A stretch of DNA of 59,258 bases from an uncultured Collinsella sp. (lineage in GTDB: Bacteria > Actinomycetota > Coriobacteriia > Coriobacteriales > Coriobacteriaceae). This document shows, piece after piece, positions 45,159-53,310 of the stretch; position 1 is the stretch's first letter, and every line of letters begins with the position of its first letter. The DNA is taken from positions 1-59,258 of the forward strand of contig USPC01000003.1 in NCBI GenBank assembly GCA_900556605.1, read 5' to 3'. The notes beneath the pieces were generated by a model. It saw only the letters and a list, made by a program, of their open reading frames with translations. It made no database searches and had not been told where the DNA came from. The position numbers were made by a program, and so were the translations under genes.

Positions 45159-46922
45159 ATGGCAGATTCCACCACCGATTACAACAATCTAGATCCCTTG
45201 GGTGACGAGGCGGCGGTTGTCGATGAGGTCGATGCCGCCGTCTCGGGCGCTCGCAAGAAGCCGCGCGCTGTCGATATGGTGCCAGAGGAGCCCGACGCGA
45301 TGGCGCCGGACGAGGAATACCAGCTCACGCCGGCGGGTCGTCGCGAACGCATCGGGCAGATTGTTCGCCTGGTCAAAAAGTACCGTGTGTGGGATAACCT
45401 CACGCCGGTTCGTTTGCGCCGCCTGCTCGAGGAACTCGGCCCCATGTTCGTCAAGATGGGGCAGATTCTGGCCAACCGGTCCGAGATTCTGCCGCAACGC
45501 TTTTGCGACGAGCTGCGTCGTCTGCGCTCCGACGTGGAGCCGGTGCCGTACGAGGTCGTACTCAGTTGTCTGGAAGAAGAATACGGCCTGCGCCTGGGGG
45601 AGATGTTCGATGCGATCGACCCCAATCCGCTTGGTAGCGCATCGCTCGCGCAGGTGCACCGCGCTCGTCTGGTGACGGGCGAGGACGTGGCCGTCAAGGT
45701 GCAGCGCCCCGGTGCGCAGCAGGTTATGGCACAGGACATCGATATCATCCGCTCGGTGGTGCGTATCGTTTCCAAGTTCGTCAACACCGATCAATTCGTT
45801 GACCTGCACGGCGTAGTCGAGGAGTTGTGGACCTCGTTTCGCGAGGAGACCAACTTTTTGGCCGAGGCCAAAAACCTCAACGACTTCTACGAGTTCCATA
45901 AGAGCGTTCATGGCGTGACGTGTCCTAAATCCTATCTGGACCTGTGCACCGAGCACGTGGTGGTTATGGACTACGTCGACGGCATTTCGATCGCCGATCC
46001 TGAACGCTTGGTGGCCGAGGGCTATGACTTGGAAAAGATCGGTGCCGCGATTGTCGAGGACTACTCGACGCAGGTGCTCGACGACGGCTTTTTCCATGCC
46101 GACCCGCATGCGGGAAACATTATTCTCAAGGATAGCATCGTTTACTTTATCGACTTGGGCATGGTCGGACGCATGTCGAGTCACGATCGCGGTATCGTCA
46201 AGGACATGATTTTCGCCGTGGCCGAGGGTGACGTGCCCAAGCTCAAGGATTCGCTCATGCGCTTTGCCGTGACGCGTGGCGATTCGGCTGAGCTCGATCA
46301 TTCGGCCTTTTTGTCCGATCTTGACTTTATCGTGGCTGACTTTGCAGGCCTTGACCTGAAGGATCTGGATATCGGCGAGTTTTTGACCTCGCTGTTAAAC
46401 CTGGCGCGCAAAAACGACGTTGAGCTGCCGAGCGTGGTAACGATGTTCGCCCGCGGCATGGTGACGCTCGAGGGCCTGTTGACCGAGTACATGCCCAACG
46501 TCAACATGATCCAGATCATTCAGACGCATATCAAAAACGAAAAAAGCACTTATGCGCGCGTGCGCGACATGGGACGCGATCTTGCCGCGAGCAGCTATCG
46601 CGCGGCAAAAGGCTCGCTCGAGGCGGCCGAGTATCTGGGCTTGGCTTCGCGTATGCTCACGCGCGGCCAGCTTAAGGTGAACACGCAGATCATGAGCAGC
46701 GATAAGGCGCTGCGACAGCTGGGCGGAATTATCGACCGCATGTCGATGGCAATTGTGATCGCCGGTCTGTTTATCGGTTCGTCGGTGGTGTACTACGCAC
46801 GCATCGAGCCGGTTGTGTTTGGTATCCCAGTCATTGGCTTTATGGGCTACGTGAGCGCGCTGGTGCTGGCGCTTATGCTGGGCCGCAATATCTGGCTCAA
46901 CAGTCACGGCGGCAAGCACTAG
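45159..46922 (+). CDS. AarF/UbiB (ABC1) family atypical kinase
   Basis: The 587-residue protein carries the UbiB signatures: the KxGQ motif (VKMGQILANRSEILP), the Ala-rich ATP loop with its QVH (GSASLAQVHRARL), the catalytic segment HADPHAGNI and the metal-binding DLGMVG. Two C-terminal transmembrane helices follow (MSMAIVIAGLFIGSSVVYYA and the segment ending VLALMLGRNIW). In other bacteria these kinase-like ATPases support isoprenoid-quinone or lipid biosynthesis at the membrane. No quinone genes are nearby. It follows the phasin-like gene. Confidence 0.92.
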   Translation: MADSTTDYNNLDPLGDEAAVVDEVDAAVSGARKKPRAVDMVPEEPDAMAPDEEYQLTPAGRRERIGQIVRLVKKYRVWDNLTPVRLRRLLEELGPMFVKMGQILANRSEILPQRFCDELRRLRSDVEPVPYEVVLSCLEEEYGLRLGEMFDAIDPNPLGSASLAQVHRARLVTGEDVAVKVQRPGAQQVMAQDIDIIRSVVRIVSKFVNTDQFVDLHGVVEELWTSFREETNFLAEAKNLNDFYEFHKSVHGVTCPKSYLDLCTEHVVVMDYVDGISIADPERLVAEGYDLEKIGAAIVEDYSTQVLDDGFFHADPHAGNIILKDSIVYFIDLGMVGRMSSHDRGIVKDMIFAVAEGDVPKLKDSLMRFAVTRGDSAELDHSAFLSDLDFIVADFAGLDLKDLDIGEFLTSLLNLARKNDVELPSVVTMFARGMVTLEGLLTEYMPNVNMIQIIQTHIKNEKSTYARVRDMGRDLAASSYRAAKGSLEAAEYLGLASRMLTRGQLKVNTQIMSSDKALRQLGGIIDRMSMAIVIAGLFIGSSVVYYARIEPVVFGIPVIGFMGYVSALVLALMLGRNIWLNSHGGKH

Positions 46923-46973
46923 AGGCTGCGACCGTCACCGCATTTTCCTATCGCAAACAATAGCTTTTACCTT

Positions 46974-47001
46974 GGGCTTCGCCTGCGTGCGAGGCCCTTT
47001 T
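46974..47001 (+). terminator. Terminator of the UbiB-like operon
   Basis: GGGCTTCGC pairs with GCGAGGCCC (one wobble) and ends in T4. The T run overlaps the -35 box of the following promoter. Confidence 0.8.
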
Positions 47002-47028
47002 GCGTGCTACCATATCGACGGTAATAAT
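47000..47028 (+). promoter_or_regulatory. Promoter of the cobalamin riboswitch transcript
   Basis: TTGCGT (47000-47005) and TAATAAT (47022-47028) are 16-17 bases apart, starting transcription just before the riboswitch. Confidence 0.55.
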
Positions 47029-47040
47029 CGATGGTCTAGA

Positions 47041-47208
47041 TGGTGGTGCGGAGACGCACGAATGCGCGGTTTTCCTGCGCGTTTGGGAGAATCGGGGTGC
47101 AAGTCCCCAGCTGTACCAGTAACCGTAATTCCTCTTGGCTCGGGATGTTCGCGTCGCAGATCGGACGACGTGCCCGAGTCGTTAAGGTTAAGTCGGATCG
47201 CCTCCCAT
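47041..47208 (+). ncRNA. Cobalamin (AdoCbl-type) riboswitch
   Basis: The region has the core of the cobalamin aptamer: GGGAGAATCGGGGTGCAAGT with a closing CCCC (47086-47108), and the B12-box form GCTGTACCAGTAACCGTAA at 47110-47128. The far arm closes with AAGTCGGATCGCCTCCC. Upstream and downstream stems P1 and P3-P6 can be drawn. It lies in the leader of the DUF4430 surface-protein gene. Normally such riboswitches shut expression when cobalamin is abundant. Confidence 0.9.
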
Positions 47209-47210
47209 CT

Positions 47211-47266
47211 TGCATGCGGCTGCGGCGTATGCAGCCGGTGTGCATAGGGCTCTGGAGGGAAGGGGG
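47211..47266 (+). promoter_or_regulatory. Riboswitch expression platform and ribosome site
   Basis: GGCTGC (47218-47223) pairs with GCAGCC (47231-47236), extended by TGCA ends. The ribosome-binding region (GGAGGGAAGGGGG, 47254-47266) follows without an obvious T tract, so control is more likely at translation than by termination (inference). Confidence 0.45.
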
Positions 47267-47272
47267 ACCCCG

Positions 47273-50200
47273 ATGGGGGAACTCGAGCGCAACATGCGCG
47301 ATGACGTGGGGCAGCCTCAAGGCAACGCTCCGAGTATAGACAATGGGGGACAAATGGATATGTTTGAGGACGAGCGTGAGCGCGCCTCGTTGCATCGCCG
47401 TGGCGCGATTGCACGCGGTGTAGCTAAGCGCGGCCTGGTGGCATTCCTGGCCTTCGCGATGGCCTTTGGCACCACGCCGGCTCAGCTGTGGGCCGAGGGC
47501 GCCGAGGGCATTGCCGAGGCTGTGGCTCAGGCTGCGACGCCGAGTGAGGACGCAGCGCTTGCGGGCGGTGCCGCTGAGCAGAGCGGCGCCGAGGTTTCGG
47601 ATTCTGGGAGCGCGCCCGCAGCTAGTACCGCCACAACAGGGGCGGTAGCTGGCGACGAAGGCTCGGCGACGGGGGAGAACCCTGCCGCGAGTGAGCAGTC
47701 TTCGACGGCATCCGCTGGCCAAGCAGGATCTGCCGCCGTGGCTACCGTCCAGGCAGAGAACCCGACAGAAACCGGCGATGTCGCCAAGAAGCAAGTCGAG
47801 GTCTCGTTCTCGATTATCGGCACCGATGCCGACGGCAAGGCTCAGACCTGGGTGGCACCTACGCAGCTCAAGCTCGACGAGGGCGCGACGGCTGCGGATG
47901 CCTTTATTAAGCTGCAAGAGAAGACGGGCTTCAAGGCGGACTACGATCCGAACACGGCATACGGTTTCTACCTCGAAAGCATCACATCCCCGAGCGATGG
48001 CCGCACGCTTGCCTTCGATCCGGCGACTTATGCCTACTGGCAGCTGTTCGTCGACGGCGCGTCTTCCTCGGTTGGCGCGAGCAGCATCAAGCTCACCCAG
48101 GGGCAGAAGATTGAGTTTGCCTATACGGCTGGTAGCGCGTCCCCTGTCGTTAAGGACCAGGTTGCCGCAAATGTGACCGTCATTGGTCGCGATGCCCAGG
48201 GCAAGACTCAGACTTGGGTCGATAACGCGCAGTATGTGGTGACGTCCGGCTCGAGCGCACTTGACCTTACGAAGGTCGCGCTCGAGGCGAATGGCATCGA
48301 CGCCTTTGCTGCGGGCTCCTTCATTCTGAGCCTTAAGTACAACGGCGTTGAGCTGGGTACGCCGTTCGATTATTCGACCTCTTGGCAGCTGTTTATCAAC
48401 GGCAAGTCGAGCGACCGCACGGCAGACAATGTCACCATTCATGCTGGCGATACCGTTACGTGGTTCTACGGTGGCTGGGGCGACCAGTTGCCATCCGATT
48501 CTGTTCATGCTTCCGTTCAGGTCCTCGGTAAGGACAAGGACGGCAAGCAGCAGGTTTGGGCCTCGACGGGCCAGACGAGTCTCAAGGCTGGTTCCACTGC
48601 TAAGGATTTGCTGGAGCAGACTGGTCTTACCCTCCATGCTACAGAAGAGTCTTGGGGTTGGTACCTCAGCGGCATTACCTCGCCGCTTGACGGTAAGATC
48701 TATGAGTATGATCCTGCGACCAAAAGTTATTGGCAGTTCTATGTAAATGGCAAGTTCGCCCAGGTCGGGGCCGGCAACTACGAACTCCAAGAGGGTGACG
48801 CCGTCACCTTTATGTATGGTGCTGACGCCGATGCCCTCCCCGGTCAGGTTCTTGGGTCCGTCGATGTTGTCGGTCCCGATGTCAACGGCAACAATACTCG
48901 CTGGGGCTCGGCAAGCAATGTTTCCCTGCCCGAAGGCTCTACGGCCCAGGACCTTATTGAGACGGTTCTGAAGGCGAAGGGCGTTACGTACAACGGCTCC
49001 CAGAGTGGTGAGTACTGGTTCCTGAATTCCATTACTTCGCCGTTCGATCACAAGCCGTATGGCTGGGATGGTGCGACCAAGAAATATTGGCGTCTGTTTA
49101 TCAACGGAGAGCCCTCATCTCTCTGCGCCAACCAGGTCACGCTCAAGAGCGGCGACAAGGCTACGTTTGCCTACACCACCGATAAATCGCCCATGCCCGA
49201 TCCCGACAAGATTGTCGTGGACCCGAGTGCAACGACTCCTGATTGGGATGCCGAGTGGGCCGGCTACGGCAACAGTGGCAACGGTTCGACCGTAACGGAT
49301 GCCAAGACACCTGCGCAGGCCGCCGGTCTTAAGTGGGCCTTCGATTGGAAGGCCGAGTCTGGTCAGCAGTATGCCAACTGCAGCGAACCTGTCATCGCTA
49401 ACGGCTTTGTGTACATCGCGACCGAGAACGAGCTCATTAAGATCGATTCGTCCACGGGCAAAAAGGTTGCCTCTGCGCCGCTTGCCTCCAAGGTGAGCTA
49501 TACCTCTCGTCCGATCTATACCAACGGCCTTATCATCGTTCCGCTCAACGGCGGTGCGGTCCAGGCGATTACTGCAGACAAGCTGATCTGCAAGTGGCTG
49601 ACGCCTGGTTTGACGGACTTGACGCAGAGCTCCTGCACCGTCGTTTCGGACGGCGAGTATGTCTATGTTGGTACGGTCGATATTTCGTATGACGAGAACT
49701 ACAACGCGACCTACGGCAACGGCTCCCTGAAGCGTATCAAGATTGCCACGGGCGAAGTCTCTTGGCAGAACATTGACCCTTCCGAGGGCTATTATTGGAC
49801 TGGCGCTGCGCTGACGGATAAGTACACCATTGTTCCTACGAGCGCGGGCACGCTTAAGTGCATTGATAAGACGACGGGCGATGTCGTTTCGACCATGAAG
49901 CTCGGCGCTGTCGCAAATGCCGATTGCATTGCCGATCCGTCCAATGGTTCGACCTTCTATCAGATGACGCACGACGGAAAGCTCCATGTGATTTCGCTTT
50001 CGGCGAAGGGTGTGCTGAGTGAACAGAAGACGGTTGATCTGAGCCTTACGAATAATCTGAGCGCCCCAGCGGTGTCTGGTGACAATCTGATTGTCGGCGG
50101 ACAGACGGCTACGGGCTCTGCTCTGGTTCTCTATAACCTGAAGACTGGTAAGACCACGATGGTCGCTGCTGCCGACGGCAAGGCGCTGCCGGCTGGCCTC

Positions 50201-51148
50201 AACGGTATTGCTGCTACTCCGCTGGTGAGTGTTCAGGGCGGCAAGACCTATGTGTACTTCACCGTTAACAGCGCGGATAGCAAGGATTACGTCAACTACT
50301 CTGCTGGTGGTGGCGTGTATCGCTATACGCTCGGCGACGCAGAGGCGACGCAGATTTATGATGCGGCTGGCCATTACCAATACTGTGACTCTCCGGTCAT
50401 TGCCGATGCTTCTGGCAACCTCTACTACATCAATGATTCGGGCACGCTGTTCAAGCTCGGGGCTGTTGAGTCTTGGACGGTTGCCTTTAATTCCAACGGC
50501 GGGTCTGCTTGCGACACTAAGTTTGTTGCTACGGCCGACGGCAAGCTGGTCAAGCCGGCCGATCCGACGCGCGATGGCTACACTTTCGGCGGTTGGTTCA
50601 CCGATGAGGCTTGCACGCAGGCGTATGACTTCAGTACGCCGGTGACGGCCGATCTGACGCTGTATGCCAAGTGGACCAAGAATGCTGTTAACCCTGGCGG
50701 CAATGGCGGTTCTGGCACTAATGGTGGCAACGGTGGCGCTGGCAACGGTTCTGGTGCTGGTGCCGGCACTGGCACGGGTTCCGGTTCCGGCTCTAAGGGC
50801 CAGCAGGCCGGCGGCGCTATCGCCCCGGGTCATAAGCCGACGACCAAGACGACGGTGTCGACCAAGACCGAGACCAAGGACAACAAGTCCGACAAGAAGG
50901 ACACCGATAAGTCCGATAAGAAGGACGAGAAGAAGTCTGACAAGAAGTCTGACAAGAAGGACAACAAGTCCGACAAGAAGTCCGATTCCAAGTCCGATAC
51001 GGGTGCTGCTTCCACGACCACTGCTAAGAAGTCCTCTAGTGCCTCCGAGCAGGAGACTGGCACCAACCCGCTCGCCATTGTTGGCGTTGCCGCCGGCGTC
51101 ATCGGTCTCGCCATCGTCGGCGTGTTCGTGTTCACCAAACGTCGGTAG
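47273..51148 (+). CDS. Riboswitch-controlled surface protein: four DUF4430 domains, beta-propeller, InlB-like repeat
   Basis: The 1291-residue protein has an extended signal peptide (core LVAFLAFAMAFGTTPAQLWA) and four DUF4430 (transcobalamin C-terminal-like) domains at about 176-286, 296-403, 411-520 and 526-638. Each contains a version of the motif W-(Q/R)-(L/F)-(F/Y)-(V/I)-(D/N)-G. A repeat-built beta-propeller resembling PQQ/WD-type folds occupies about 676-1068 (IANGFVYIATENELIKIDSS, TSAGTLKCIDKTTGDVVSTM). An InlB B-repeat is at 1069-1136 (RDGYTFGGWFTDEACTQAYDF), then a Gly-rich linker, a Lys/Asp/Ser wall-spanning stretch (about 1198-1243) and a C-terminal membrane helix with an RR tail. 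Riboswitch control argues for B12 binding. No canonical LPxTG is present. A later start at 47353 is possible. Confidence 0.85.
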   Translation: MGELERNMRDDVGQPQGNAPSIDNGGQMDMFEDERERASLHRRGAIARGVAKRGLVAFLAFAMAFGTTPAQLWAEGAEGIAEAVAQAATPSEDAALAGGAAEQSGAEVSDSGSAPAASTATTGAVAGDEGSATGENPAASEQSSTASAGQAGSAAVATVQAENPTETGDVAKKQVEVSFSIIGTDADGKAQTWVAPTQLKLDEGATAADAFIKLQEKTGFKADYDPNTAYGFYLESITSPSDGRTLAFDPATYAYWQLFVDGASSSVGASSIKLTQGQKIEFAYTAGSASPVVKDQVAANVTVIGRDAQGKTQTWVDNAQYVVTSGSSALDLTKVALEANGIDAFAAGSFILSLKYNGVELGTPFDYSTSWQLFINGKSSDRTADNVTIHAGDTVTWFYGGWGDQLPSDSVHASVQVLGKDKDGKQQVWASTGQTSLKAGSTAKDLLEQTGLTLHATEESWGWYLSGITSPLDGKIYEYDPATKSYWQFYVNGKFAQVGAGNYELQEGDAVTFMYGADADALPGQVLGSVDVVGPDVNGNNTRWGSASNVSLPEGSTAQDLIETVLKAKGVTYNGSQSGEYWFLNSITSPFDHKPYGWDGATKKYWRLFINGEPSSLCANQVTLKSGDKATFAYTTDKSPMPDPDKIVVDPSATTPDWDAEWAGYGNSGNGSTVTDAKTPAQAAGLKWAFDWKAESGQQYANCSEPVIANGFVYIATENELIKIDSSTGKKVASAPLASKVSYTSRPIYTNGLIIVPLNGGAVQAITADKLICKWLTPGLTDLTQSSCTVVSDGEYVYVGTVDISYDENYNATYGNGSLKRIKIATGEVSWQNIDPSEGYYWTGAALTDKYTIVPTSAGTLKCIDKTTGDVVSTMKLGAVANADCIADPSNGSTFYQMTHDGKLHVISLSAKGVLSEQKTVDLSLTNNLSAPAVSGDNLIVGGQTATGSALVLYNLKTGKTTMVAAADGKALPAGLNGIAATPLVSVQGGKTYVYFTVNSADSKDYVNYSAGGGVYRYTLGDAEATQIYDAAGHYQYCDSPVIADASGNLYYINDSGTLFKLGAVESWTVAFNSNGGSACDTKFVATADGKLVKPADPTRDGYTFGGWFTDEACTQAYDFSTPVTADLTLYAKWTKNAVNPGGNGGSGTNGGNGGAGNGSGAGAGTGTGSGSGSKGQQAGGAIAPGHKPTTKTTVSTKTETKDNKSDKKDTDKSDKKDEKKSDKKSDKKDNKSDKKSDSKSDTGAASTTTAKKSSSASEQETGTNPLAIVGVAAGVIGLAIVGVFVFTKRR

Positions 51149-52051
51149 GTGAGGGCTGTGTCCAATAAATCCAAGGACGCTGACCCCAAGCAACCAGATT
51201 CCTCGTTCATTCAGTTCGACGATGCAAAGCAACAGGGCGCCGCTTCGGCGGCGTCCGCCCCTCGTCGCAAGACGCTCCTCGGCGTCCTGACTGCCGCGTG
51301 CACCATTCTGATCGTCGTCTCGCTGGGTTTCGTCCATCCTTCCGAGAGCGGTGCCTGGTCCATCGACTGGATCATTCAGACCGTGACGGGGGAGAGCGTC
51401 GTAACCAAGGACACCAAGGTGTCTGGCTCGACTACGACTTCGGGCGAGGCCAGTTCCAAGGATTCTAAGTCATCGAATGACGCAAAAGATGAGTCCAAGC
51501 ATTCTGATGAGTCCAAGTCCAAGGACGATTCCGAGTCTTCAAACAAGGAATCGGACAAGAACTCGGATAACAAGAAGTCCGAGGACCAGGACGGCAAGAA
51601 GTCTGGCGATAAATCCGCTGCCCAAAATACGGGAGTCGGTGATACTTCCAATGCGTCTGGCGGTGGCCAGTCGTCTGATGGAGCCTCATCCTCTAATGGT
51701 GGAAACGCCTCCTCGGGCGGCCAGGGCGGCTCGCAGGAGTCCAGCTACGTAACGGTGACGGTTTCGGTCACATCGAGCGCTGTGGGCAATCCTGTGTCTT
51801 CTGGTGGCACCTTTACCTTTAACGAAGGCGCTACCGTCTACGATGCCCTGTGCGCGCTGGGCCTTTCTGTCAACGCACATGGCTCGTCGTACGGCACGTA
51901 TGTTTCTGCGATTGGTGGTTTGGCCGAGAAACAGTACGGCGGCACGAGCGGCTGGATGTACTCCGTCAACGGCACAACGCCCATGACGGCCTGCAGCAAC
52001 TACGTTCTCTCCAACGGCGACAACGTGGTCTGGTATTACGTTACAGGCTAG
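51149..52051 (+). CDS. Second DUF4430 protein with membrane anchor
   Basis: The 300-residue protein has an N-terminal membrane helix (about 38-55, KTLLGVLTAACTILIVVSLGF), a long Ser/Lys/Asp-rich linker (about 90-200), and one C-terminal DUF4430 domain (TVYDALCALGL, GGTSGWMYSVNG, GDNVVWYYV). It starts at the base after the stop of the large DUF4430 gene (a GTG; a second GTG at 51158 is alternative), so both are under the riboswitch. The linker resembles that of its partner. A companion receptor or cobalamin handover partner is inferred. A terminator follows. Confidence 0.85.
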   Translation: MRAVSNKSKDADPKQPDSSFIQFDDAKQQGAASAASAPRRKTLLGVLTAACTILIVVSLGFVHPSESGAWSIDWIIQTVTGESVVTKDTKVSGSTTTSGEASSKDSKSSNDAKDESKHSDESKSKDDSESSNKESDKNSDNKKSEDQDGKKSGDKSAAQNTGVGDTSNASGGGQSSDGASSSNGGNASSGGQGGSQESSYVTVTVSVTSSAVGNPVSSGGTFTFNEGATVYDALCALGLSVNAHGSSYGTYVSAIGGLAEKQYGGTSGWMYSVNGTTPMTACSNYVLSNGDNVVWYYVTG

Positions 52052-52210: not shown

Positions 52211-52618
52211 CTACGACCGTGCGCCCTCGAGGAAGAAGCGGCGGCTGAAGTAGTTGTACCAGGTGACGAGGAACGTGGCGATGGCCTTCATGGCCTGGTA
52301 GCCGATGCTCAAAAACGTGACGCCCACAAACATGTACAGGTCGTTGAGGCCCAGGCCGATCACCGACAGGATGGTGAAGATCGTGAACTCGCGCTTGCGG
52401 CTCATGCCCTCGCGATGGTCGAACACGTACTTCATGCTGAGCCAGTAGTTGACCACGACGGACGTGGTAAACGAGACCGTGGTGCTCATCAAAAAGTCGA
52501 GGTGAAACAGCTCGACGAGCGCAATGAGCATACCCCAGTCGATGCCAAAGGAGATAAGACCCACGACAGCGAACTTGAGGAACTGCTTGGTATGAGGTTG
52601 TGCCAGTGCCTTGCGCAC
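52211..52618 (-). CDS. GtrA family membrane protein (copy 1)
   Basis: The 135-residue protein has four membrane helices and the GtrA signature (FLKFAVVGLISFGIDWGML, then NYWLSMKYVF). GtrA proteins are thought to flip or shuttle polyprenyl-phosphate-linked sugars for cell-surface glycans. Translation probably begins at a GTG with a weak ribosome site. It is paralogous to the neighbour encoded at 52837. No glycosyltransferase is adjacent. Confidence 0.85.
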   Translation of the reverse strand: MRKALAQPHTKQFLKFAVVGLISFGIDWGMLIALVELFHLDFLMSTTVSFTTSVVVNYWLSMKYVFDHREGMSRKREFTIFTILSVIGLGLNDLYMFVGVTFLSIGYQAMKAIATFLVTWYNYFSRRFFLEGARS

Positions 52619-52836: not shown

Positions 52837-53232
52837 TTACTTGGTCTCGTCGCCTTCCAGGAAGATCTTTCGGGTCACAAAGTTGTAGACCATGACAAGC
52901 GCGGTGGCGCAGATCTTGGCGATATTGGCCTCGAGTCCCAGACCGGCGTTGAGTGTCAACACGATAGCGTCGTTGAGTACCAGGCCGATCACGGACAGCA
53001 CGACAAAGATAATGAACTCGCGGCGGCGGCTCATGCCCTCCTTGTGCGCAAACACGTACTTCATGCTGGCGAGGTAGTTAAAGATGAGTGAGATGATAAA
53101 GCCGCTGGTGTTGGCGATTAGGATGTTGAGGCCCAGACCGTAGTGGAGCAGATTCATAATGCCAAAGTCGATGACCGTGGCAATGACACCGACGACGCCA
53201 AATTTCATGATCTGCGCAAGGAGCTTTTGCAT
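52837..53232 (-). CDS. GtrA family membrane protein (copy 2)
   Basis: The 131-residue paralogue of the preceding GtrA shares the block GMSRRREF-IIFVVLSVIGLVLND and ends FVTRKIFLEGD. Four helices are present. The start at 53232 is chosen because AGG lies at a suitable distance and it fits the usual GtrA length; a TTG at 53295 would add 21 residues. It lies downstream of fbp on the same strand. Confidence 0.8.
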   Translation of the reverse strand: MQKLLAQIMKFGVVGVIATVIDFGIMNLLHYGLGLNILIANTSGFIISLIFNYLASMKYVFAHKEGMSRRREFIIFVVLSVIGLVLNDAIVLTLNAGLGLEANIAKICATALVMVYNFVTRKIFLEGDETK

Positions 53233-53310
53233 GGTACCTGCCTTAAGCTGGCGCCGAAGCGCCGCGGGGATGACAAACTCAGCAAGTTTAGCCAATCCCC
53301 ACGGGTGGAG

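Follow-up and report, generated by a model that had tools for sequence, protein, structure and literature searches.

A cobalamin riboswitch-like leader and two DUF4430 proteins form a probable surface system for vitamin B12 capture in Collinsella

We describe here a two-gene operon in a stretch of 59,258 nucleotides (nt) from an uncultured Collinsella sp. (contig USPC01000003.1 of assembly GCA_900556605.1, forward strand), which as a whole is referred to below as the window. The operon follows a likely variant cobalamin aptamer and encodes two proteins built around DUF4430 domains. Our preferred reading, which we hold at a probability of roughly 0.77, is that of a cobalamin-responsive operon whose anchored products catch vitamin B12 or a related corrinoid through DUF4430 and pass it to a CbrT-like importer of the energy-coupling factor (ECF) type, encoded probably elsewhere. 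The leader would sense the corrinoid level, whereupon the two surface proteins would be made; their DUF4430 domains would take up the corrinoid on the outer side of the membrane, for import by the CbrT-like ECF importer. Binding of the ligand, its transfer to the importer and the direction in which the switch acts are parts of this scheme that we infer. Surface capture of B12 had also been proposed by the initial annotation, made from the sequence alone. This purpose is well supported by the fold, by a class-wide riboswitch link and by a CbrT-like importer in relatives. The idea itself was already published in 2007 (Burroughs et al.; PMC1796856).

As for the leader, the region 47084–47272 ahead of gene 1 is likely a variant AdoCbl-II aptamer, judging from its sequence. 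Cobalamin families were absent from a default Rfam scan of the whole window; a permissive Rfam scan of 46880–47420 matched AdoCbl-II (RF01689) at 47086–47202 on the plus strand, where all features of the operon lie, with 25.7 bits and an E-value of 0.0011. The window leader shares the core sequence and pairs of this family, named AdoCbl-variant in PMC2864571, and differs from it by a sub-threshold score, by a P6 arm with a long insert and by an expression platform of its own. We ruled out a chance aptamer, since in G001, the nearest compared genome (2.5 Mb), RF01689 has a single match at E ≤ 1, located in the equivalent leader (27.4 bits, E = 3.5e-4), and since the aptamer is kept across the 17 leaders compared and is found repeatedly ahead of DUF4430 genes. 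The cobalamin riboswitch that the initial annotation had placed at the head of the operon is retained, though below threshold. A search for the leader in phages gave no match.

The 17 leaders comprise that of the window and those of 16 among the 19 Collinsella loci found with protein 2, the other three (L010, L023 and L025) stopping short of the leader on their upstream side. They are on average 97% identical over 209 columns, while the part of gene 1 that follows drops to about 33–48% identity in several Collinsella loci. In four of these (L012, L020, L021 and L022) the part made of DUF4430 and propeller is 33–34% identical to that of the window, with the leader nearly unchanged. The pattern resembles what swapping of that portion of gene 1 among relatives would leave. 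A leader structure of 47 pairs was drawn from the Rfam core and a computed fold. Standard pairs fill 99.9% of its 799 pair cells in the 17 leaders, compared with 37–41% in controls with slid partners. Double-sided changes (U-A to C-G) were detected at two pairs, one of the P6 arm and one of the platform hairpin, and are carried by the same four of the 17 leaders. The number of cells changed on both sides (eight), the percentage paired and the covariation score were reached by none of 500 shuffles. Most core pairs are invariant and hence neutral as evidence, so that support for the core rests there on the Rfam match. Taken as a whole, the aptamer structure is conserved and covarying, at a score under the Rfam gathering score.

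The leader begins downstream of a terminator-like hairpin (46974–46997), which parts the operon from the upstream gene and directly 3' of which the initial annotation had set its start (47000); one such hairpin was found against 0.6 expected in shuffles, which makes it weak by itself. The putative aptamer extends from closing helix to closing helix at 47084–47207, as indicated by the RF01689 match and pair conservation. Its loop L5 bases (47115–47117) are candidates for a pseudoknot with 47237–47239, a pairing possible in 17/17 leaders by invariant bases, for which covariation is no test. It is followed by the expression-platform hairpin (47214–47245), where one of the above U-A to C-G changes lies, and by the ribosome-binding site GGAGGG (47254–47259), which can pair with CCUCC at 47201–47205, overlapping the aptamer closing helix.

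Gene 1 (47273–51148) encodes 1291 amino acids (aa) with four DUF4430 domains, a β-propeller, a List_Bact repeat and a C-terminal membrane segment, and is directly followed by gene 2 (51149–52051; 300 aa), whose product has an N-terminal membrane segment, a Ser/Asp/Lys-rich linker and a single DUF4430 domain. The domain counts given by the initial annotation hold, as Pfam DUF4430 (PF14478, cut-off 23.8 bits) recognizes four stretches in protein 1 (150.4 bits; 47819–48124, 48185–48469, 48527–48817 and 48872–49174) and one in protein 2 (68.6 bits; 51734–52048). The propeller (49310–50464) is succeeded by the Flg_new/List_Bact_rpt repeat (50477–50671; Pfam, 76.7 bits). Each protein has a single strongly hydrophobic segment, which in protein 1 lies at the C end (51077–51145, with a basic tail, a putative membrane anchor) and in protein 2 close to the N end (51278–51334). 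Both proteins are predicted to be exported and to sit outside the cell, anchored in the membrane. The proposed anchoring was kept for the membrane but not for the wall: no LPxTG-like motif ([LMN]Px[TS]G) was matched in either protein, which points to membrane rather than sortase-dependent wall attachment.

The likeness of DUF4430 to the C-terminal fold of animal B12 carriers, also noted in the initial annotation, was borne out by profile and structure comparisons. As a single query, protein 2 had no sequence match in the PDB. A DUF4430 profile of 19 domains (five from the window and 14 from relatives) retrieved haptocorrin first (E = 1.9e-5), then the Ruminococcus gnavus protein 3u7z, transcobalamin 2 and intrinsic factor (E = 0.045). 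An AlphaFold2 model of the protein 2 domain, the only one of the five modelled alone, reached a predicted local distance difference test (pLDDT) value of 95.5. In Foldseek it gave 19 PDB matches at E ≤ 0.001, 17 of them animal B12 carriers and two R. gnavus 3u7z, and in VIA its top 15 entries stood at 13.8–15.4, followed by the next at 7.8. The transcobalamin-like clade is defined by a β-hairpin inserted after the helix of the β-grasp, which in transcobalamin contacts B12 (PMC1796856). The modelled domain shows this arrangement, with a helix at residues 35–41 and strands at 46–51 and 54–60. Among solved structures, PDB 5np4 is the human β domain alone, with cyanocobalamin. In contrast to transcobalamin, haptocorrin and intrinsic factor, the window proteins lack the α/α toroid, gene 1 carries four tandem domains and a propeller, and both products are predicted to be membrane-anchored.

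The β-propeller assigned to the large protein was likewise recovered, in an AlphaFold2 model of the fragment 48890–50470 (pLDDT 84.9, 16 sequences), which also takes in nearly all of the fourth DUF4430 domain. Its top Foldseek matches were BamB and tetrathionate hydrolase, and those of VIA were YxaL, designed eight-bladed propellers, BamB and Rv3035. In other genera, gene 1 carries an α/α toroid in the propeller's stead. Of five such toroid proteins compared with Pfam, one was over the cut-off, three matched weakly and one had no match. In the PDB, the toroid profile found squalene-cyclase-like chains (E = 2e-6) and not transcobalamin; we therefore dropped the toroid as a sequence relative of the transcobalamin α domain, the two being linked by superfamily only (PMC1796856). 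The toroid profile had no match in the window, which thus does not show the full transcobalamin architecture.

We collected 39 riboswitch regions from 37 genomes, nearly all picked near riboswitch and DUF4430 matches. The number with DUF4430 is thus given by selection, while those with EcfT, EcfA, S component, propeller or toroid are not, although these same regions supplied the sequences for the EcfT, EcfA, S-component and toroid profiles. By profile, a propeller is encoded in 22 regions, a toroid in seven (five of which built the profile), both in none and neither in 10. Transcobalamin clamps B12 between its toroid and β domain (PMC1796856). Together with the mutual exclusion of propeller and toroid, this analogy suggests that the propeller may take the toroid's place in the device, while tethering is the role proposed for such extra domains in PMC1796856. 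We advance more tentatively, and with doubt prevailing, the idea of an ECF importer with a receptor relay of its own, in which five β domains on two anchored proteins would deliver B12 to a CbrT-like S component and a propeller of the eight-bladed type would replace the toroid as the second jaw of the clamp.

The link between aptamer and DUF4430 is not particular to the window. A survey for DUF4430 behind cobalamin riboswitches, as recommended in the initial annotation, covered 196 genomes of the class, taken as Coriobacteriia (which includes Collinsella aerofaciens). Matches were found in 69 genomes for RF01689 (over the gathering score in 16), in 115 for DUF4430 and in 114 for the cobalamin family RF00174. 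At least 62 of the 74 RF01689 places are followed on their strand by DUF4430 at a distance of no more than 12 kb, against about 0.19 expected for genomes of 2.3 Mb. This count is low, being based on the 150 DUF4430 matches listed (109 of the 115 genomes); also, one genome (G090) is scored as a miss though DUF4430 is directly downstream. Among the matches listed, at least 77 of 109 genomes have DUF4430 behind RF01689 or RF00174. In turn, only 19 of 93 RF00174-only places are followed by DUF4430 among these matches, which implies that many other cobalamin riboswitches of the class control something else.

In 28 of the 39 regions, the DUF4430, EcfT, EcfA and S component genes are recognized by profiles on one strand; G070 is counted as a miss, though its DUF4430, EcfA and S genes lie in a continuation (L071) outside the counts. 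Two S components tested were over the cut-off for PF07155, the riboflavin-type S model, and for PF20221. An S-component profile (five sequences) found one strong relative in the PDB, 6fnp (E = 3e-15; next 0.04), which is ECF-CbrT, characterised in Lactobacillus delbrueckii as an importer of vitamin B12 (PMC5997447). In that system, substrate binding is ascribed to the S component, while in many relatives of the window the genes for surface proteins stand ahead of those for the importer. The initial annotation had reported no ABC transporter or Btu gene in the window, and profile searches of the window, taken as a fortieth region, gave no EcfT, EcfA or S homologue (its other genes were not scanned for other transporters). 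The wider picture is different, as a CbrT-like S component occurs in 41 of 42 genomes of G001's genus, mostly at another locus. In 28 genus genomes where both could be placed, the S gene is about 3.2 kb from the RF01689 place in five; in four the two share a contig at a distance of 57 kb to 1.4 Mb, and in 19 they are on different contigs. Linked and separate arrangements are thus both present in the genus, the separate one being that of G001, the closest genome to the window. The separate locus of four genomes (L117, L118, L120 and L121) contains EcfT, EcfA and S; in G001 and G134 (L117 4915–14023 and L118 537–9441), EcfA and S are parted by about 5.7 kb holding five called genes, and in L120 and L121 they are adjacent. 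The CbrT-related S component occurs with EcfT and EcfA in related regions and in separate loci of G001 and others, outside the window. The importer for the window's surface pair is probably encoded elsewhere in its genome, where the pair and the distant importer would cooperate.

Several observations weigh against this reading. The window aptamer, with 25.7 bits, scores under the Rfam gathering score of 36.5. As many as two double-changed pairs were reached by 252 of 500 shuffles, and the further pair types (13) are fewer than the shuffled mean of 14.4 and were reached by 500 of 500. With the aptamer open, the CCUCC of the closing helix would be free to pair with GGAGG, so that, naively, the ligand would switch translation on, and this ribosome-site-hiding fold is indeed favoured by the open aptamer (−115.0 vs. 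−110.5 kcal/mol, by two-dimensional folding, pseudoknots not included). Among the DUF4430 matches listed, 32 of 109 genomes show no riboswitch match nearby; four such loci, permissively rescanned, gave no cobalamin match, even though their DUF4430 genes have EcfT or EcfA genes close by. Nor was an Rfam cobalamin match found at the separate ECF locus of the above four genomes. Moreover, CbiC, which in G001 lies within a cbi-like cluster, and a single FecCD permease are each present in four of four genomes searched, so that a BtuCD-like route and B12 synthesis may exist; a B12-binding domain is also found once in each of the four. C. aerofaciens ATCC 25986 is a predicted B12 producer (PMC4403557), yet a review places the species with strains in need of B12 whose auxotrophy is rather for precorrin-2 (PMC8123684). 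Salvage alongside synthesis is a picture that fits.

The same observations bear on the best of the alternatives, namely that the ligand is another corrinoid or precursor (cobinamide, pseudo-B12 or an early tetrapyrrole precursor) and cobalamin only the riboswitch signal. It agrees with the precorrin-2 auxotrophy rather than B12 dependence of C. aerofaciens (PMC8123684), with the presence of cbi-like genes including CbiC, and with the wording of PMC1796856, which speaks of B12 or its precursors. Nevertheless, we regard it as unlikely, given that the S component of the partner importer has its nearest relative in CbrT, itself an S component for cobalamin, and that the fold family binds cobalamin in animals. 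Less probable still is a role in adhesion at the surface or as a wall scaffold, in which the β-grasp would serve other contacts and B12 control would reflect niche sensing. This sits poorly with same-strand importer genes in 28 of 39 regions and with structure matches (E ≤ 0.001) confined to B12 carriers and one bacterial DUF4430 protein. Cobalt genes are often under cobalamin riboswitches and 3u7z is titled putative metal binding protein, but capture of cobalt for B12 synthesis instead of a corrinoid is very improbable, as the S component resembles CbrT and the two S components tested were over the cut-off for PF07155, with no cobalt-transport model among the matches listed.

In G001, CbiC and FecCD are at opposite sides of the cbi-like B12 synthesis cluster (L145/L146, C12 32513–53948), which is accompanied by genes in divergent orientation, headed by a weak RF00174 match (14.8 bits). 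These are a CbiK-like lipoprotein gene, a small and a large lipoprotein-like gene, FecCD and one further gene. This sole RF00174 match was rejected as the switch of the G001 DUF4430 operon, as it lies on another contig before the lipoprotein and FecCD genes. Two other genus genomes have RF00174 over the cut-off away from the DUF4430 operon (G100 C2 31112–31238, 48.2 bits; G137 C13 46020–46146, 46.8 bits). A raiA RNA (RF03072, 171.8 bits) is found near a DUF4430-ECF operon (L126 3914–4168, minus strand). Elsewhere in the window, we observed the structured RNA family Collinsella-1 (RF01700; 34694–34890, plus strand, 221.8 bits) and, on the minus strand, two neighbouring genes for small membrane-like proteins resembling each other (52211–52618 and 52837–53295), presumably GtrA-like.

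The window belongs to a kind predicted by Burroughs et al. (2007; PMC1796856), who assigned B12 scavenging to anchored transcobalamin-like proteins of the SLBB superfamily, often two per operon. Shared with that clade are secreted or anchored DUF4430-type domains, their fusion to a toroid or propeller, a paralogue as the second surface protein and, within the operon, genes resembling CbiO and CbiQ. The passages of that paper on these proteins name low-GC Gram-positives, planctomycetes and euryarchaea, and leave a riboswitch and a CbrT-like S component unmentioned. Its carriers usually are without key synthesis enzymes, whereas here genomes carry cbi genes, and in most of the genus the importer lies apart from the surface pair. 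DUF4430 is also mentioned in PMC4350170. As for the comparison drawn in the initial annotation with BtuG and BtuH of Bacteroides (PMC6143338, PMC8941943), these, too, assist in capturing B12 at the surface and include a propeller, and to that extent the analogy stands. BtuG, however, is a seven-bladed propeller lipoprotein working with BtuB, whereas designed eight-bladed proteins rank among the top matches of the window propeller, together with BamB and YxaL. The 50 matches listed by Foldseek or VIA do not include BtuG, an absence which excludes nothing. The binding domain of BtuH is said to be without a known structural homologue (PMC8941943). Neither a test of the 2007 prediction nor a riboswitch link to these proteins was met in the literature searched, mostly below full text and with subscription journals outside the search. 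Relative to that literature, new are the class-wide riboswitch link and its count, the CbrT-like partner and the exchange of propeller for toroid.

Competition for B12 by Firmicutes is described as poorly known (PMC8941943), and the same applies to Gram-positive gut bacteria in general. The class-wide riboswitch-linked set, found mostly beside a CbrT-like importer, makes the 2007 prediction directly testable. If our reading is true, ECF importers would gain an external capture stage, and the propeller, should it also act as a second jaw, would be a new way to grip B12. The system would also bear on competition in the gut with the intrinsic factor of the host and on the origin of animal B12 carriers.

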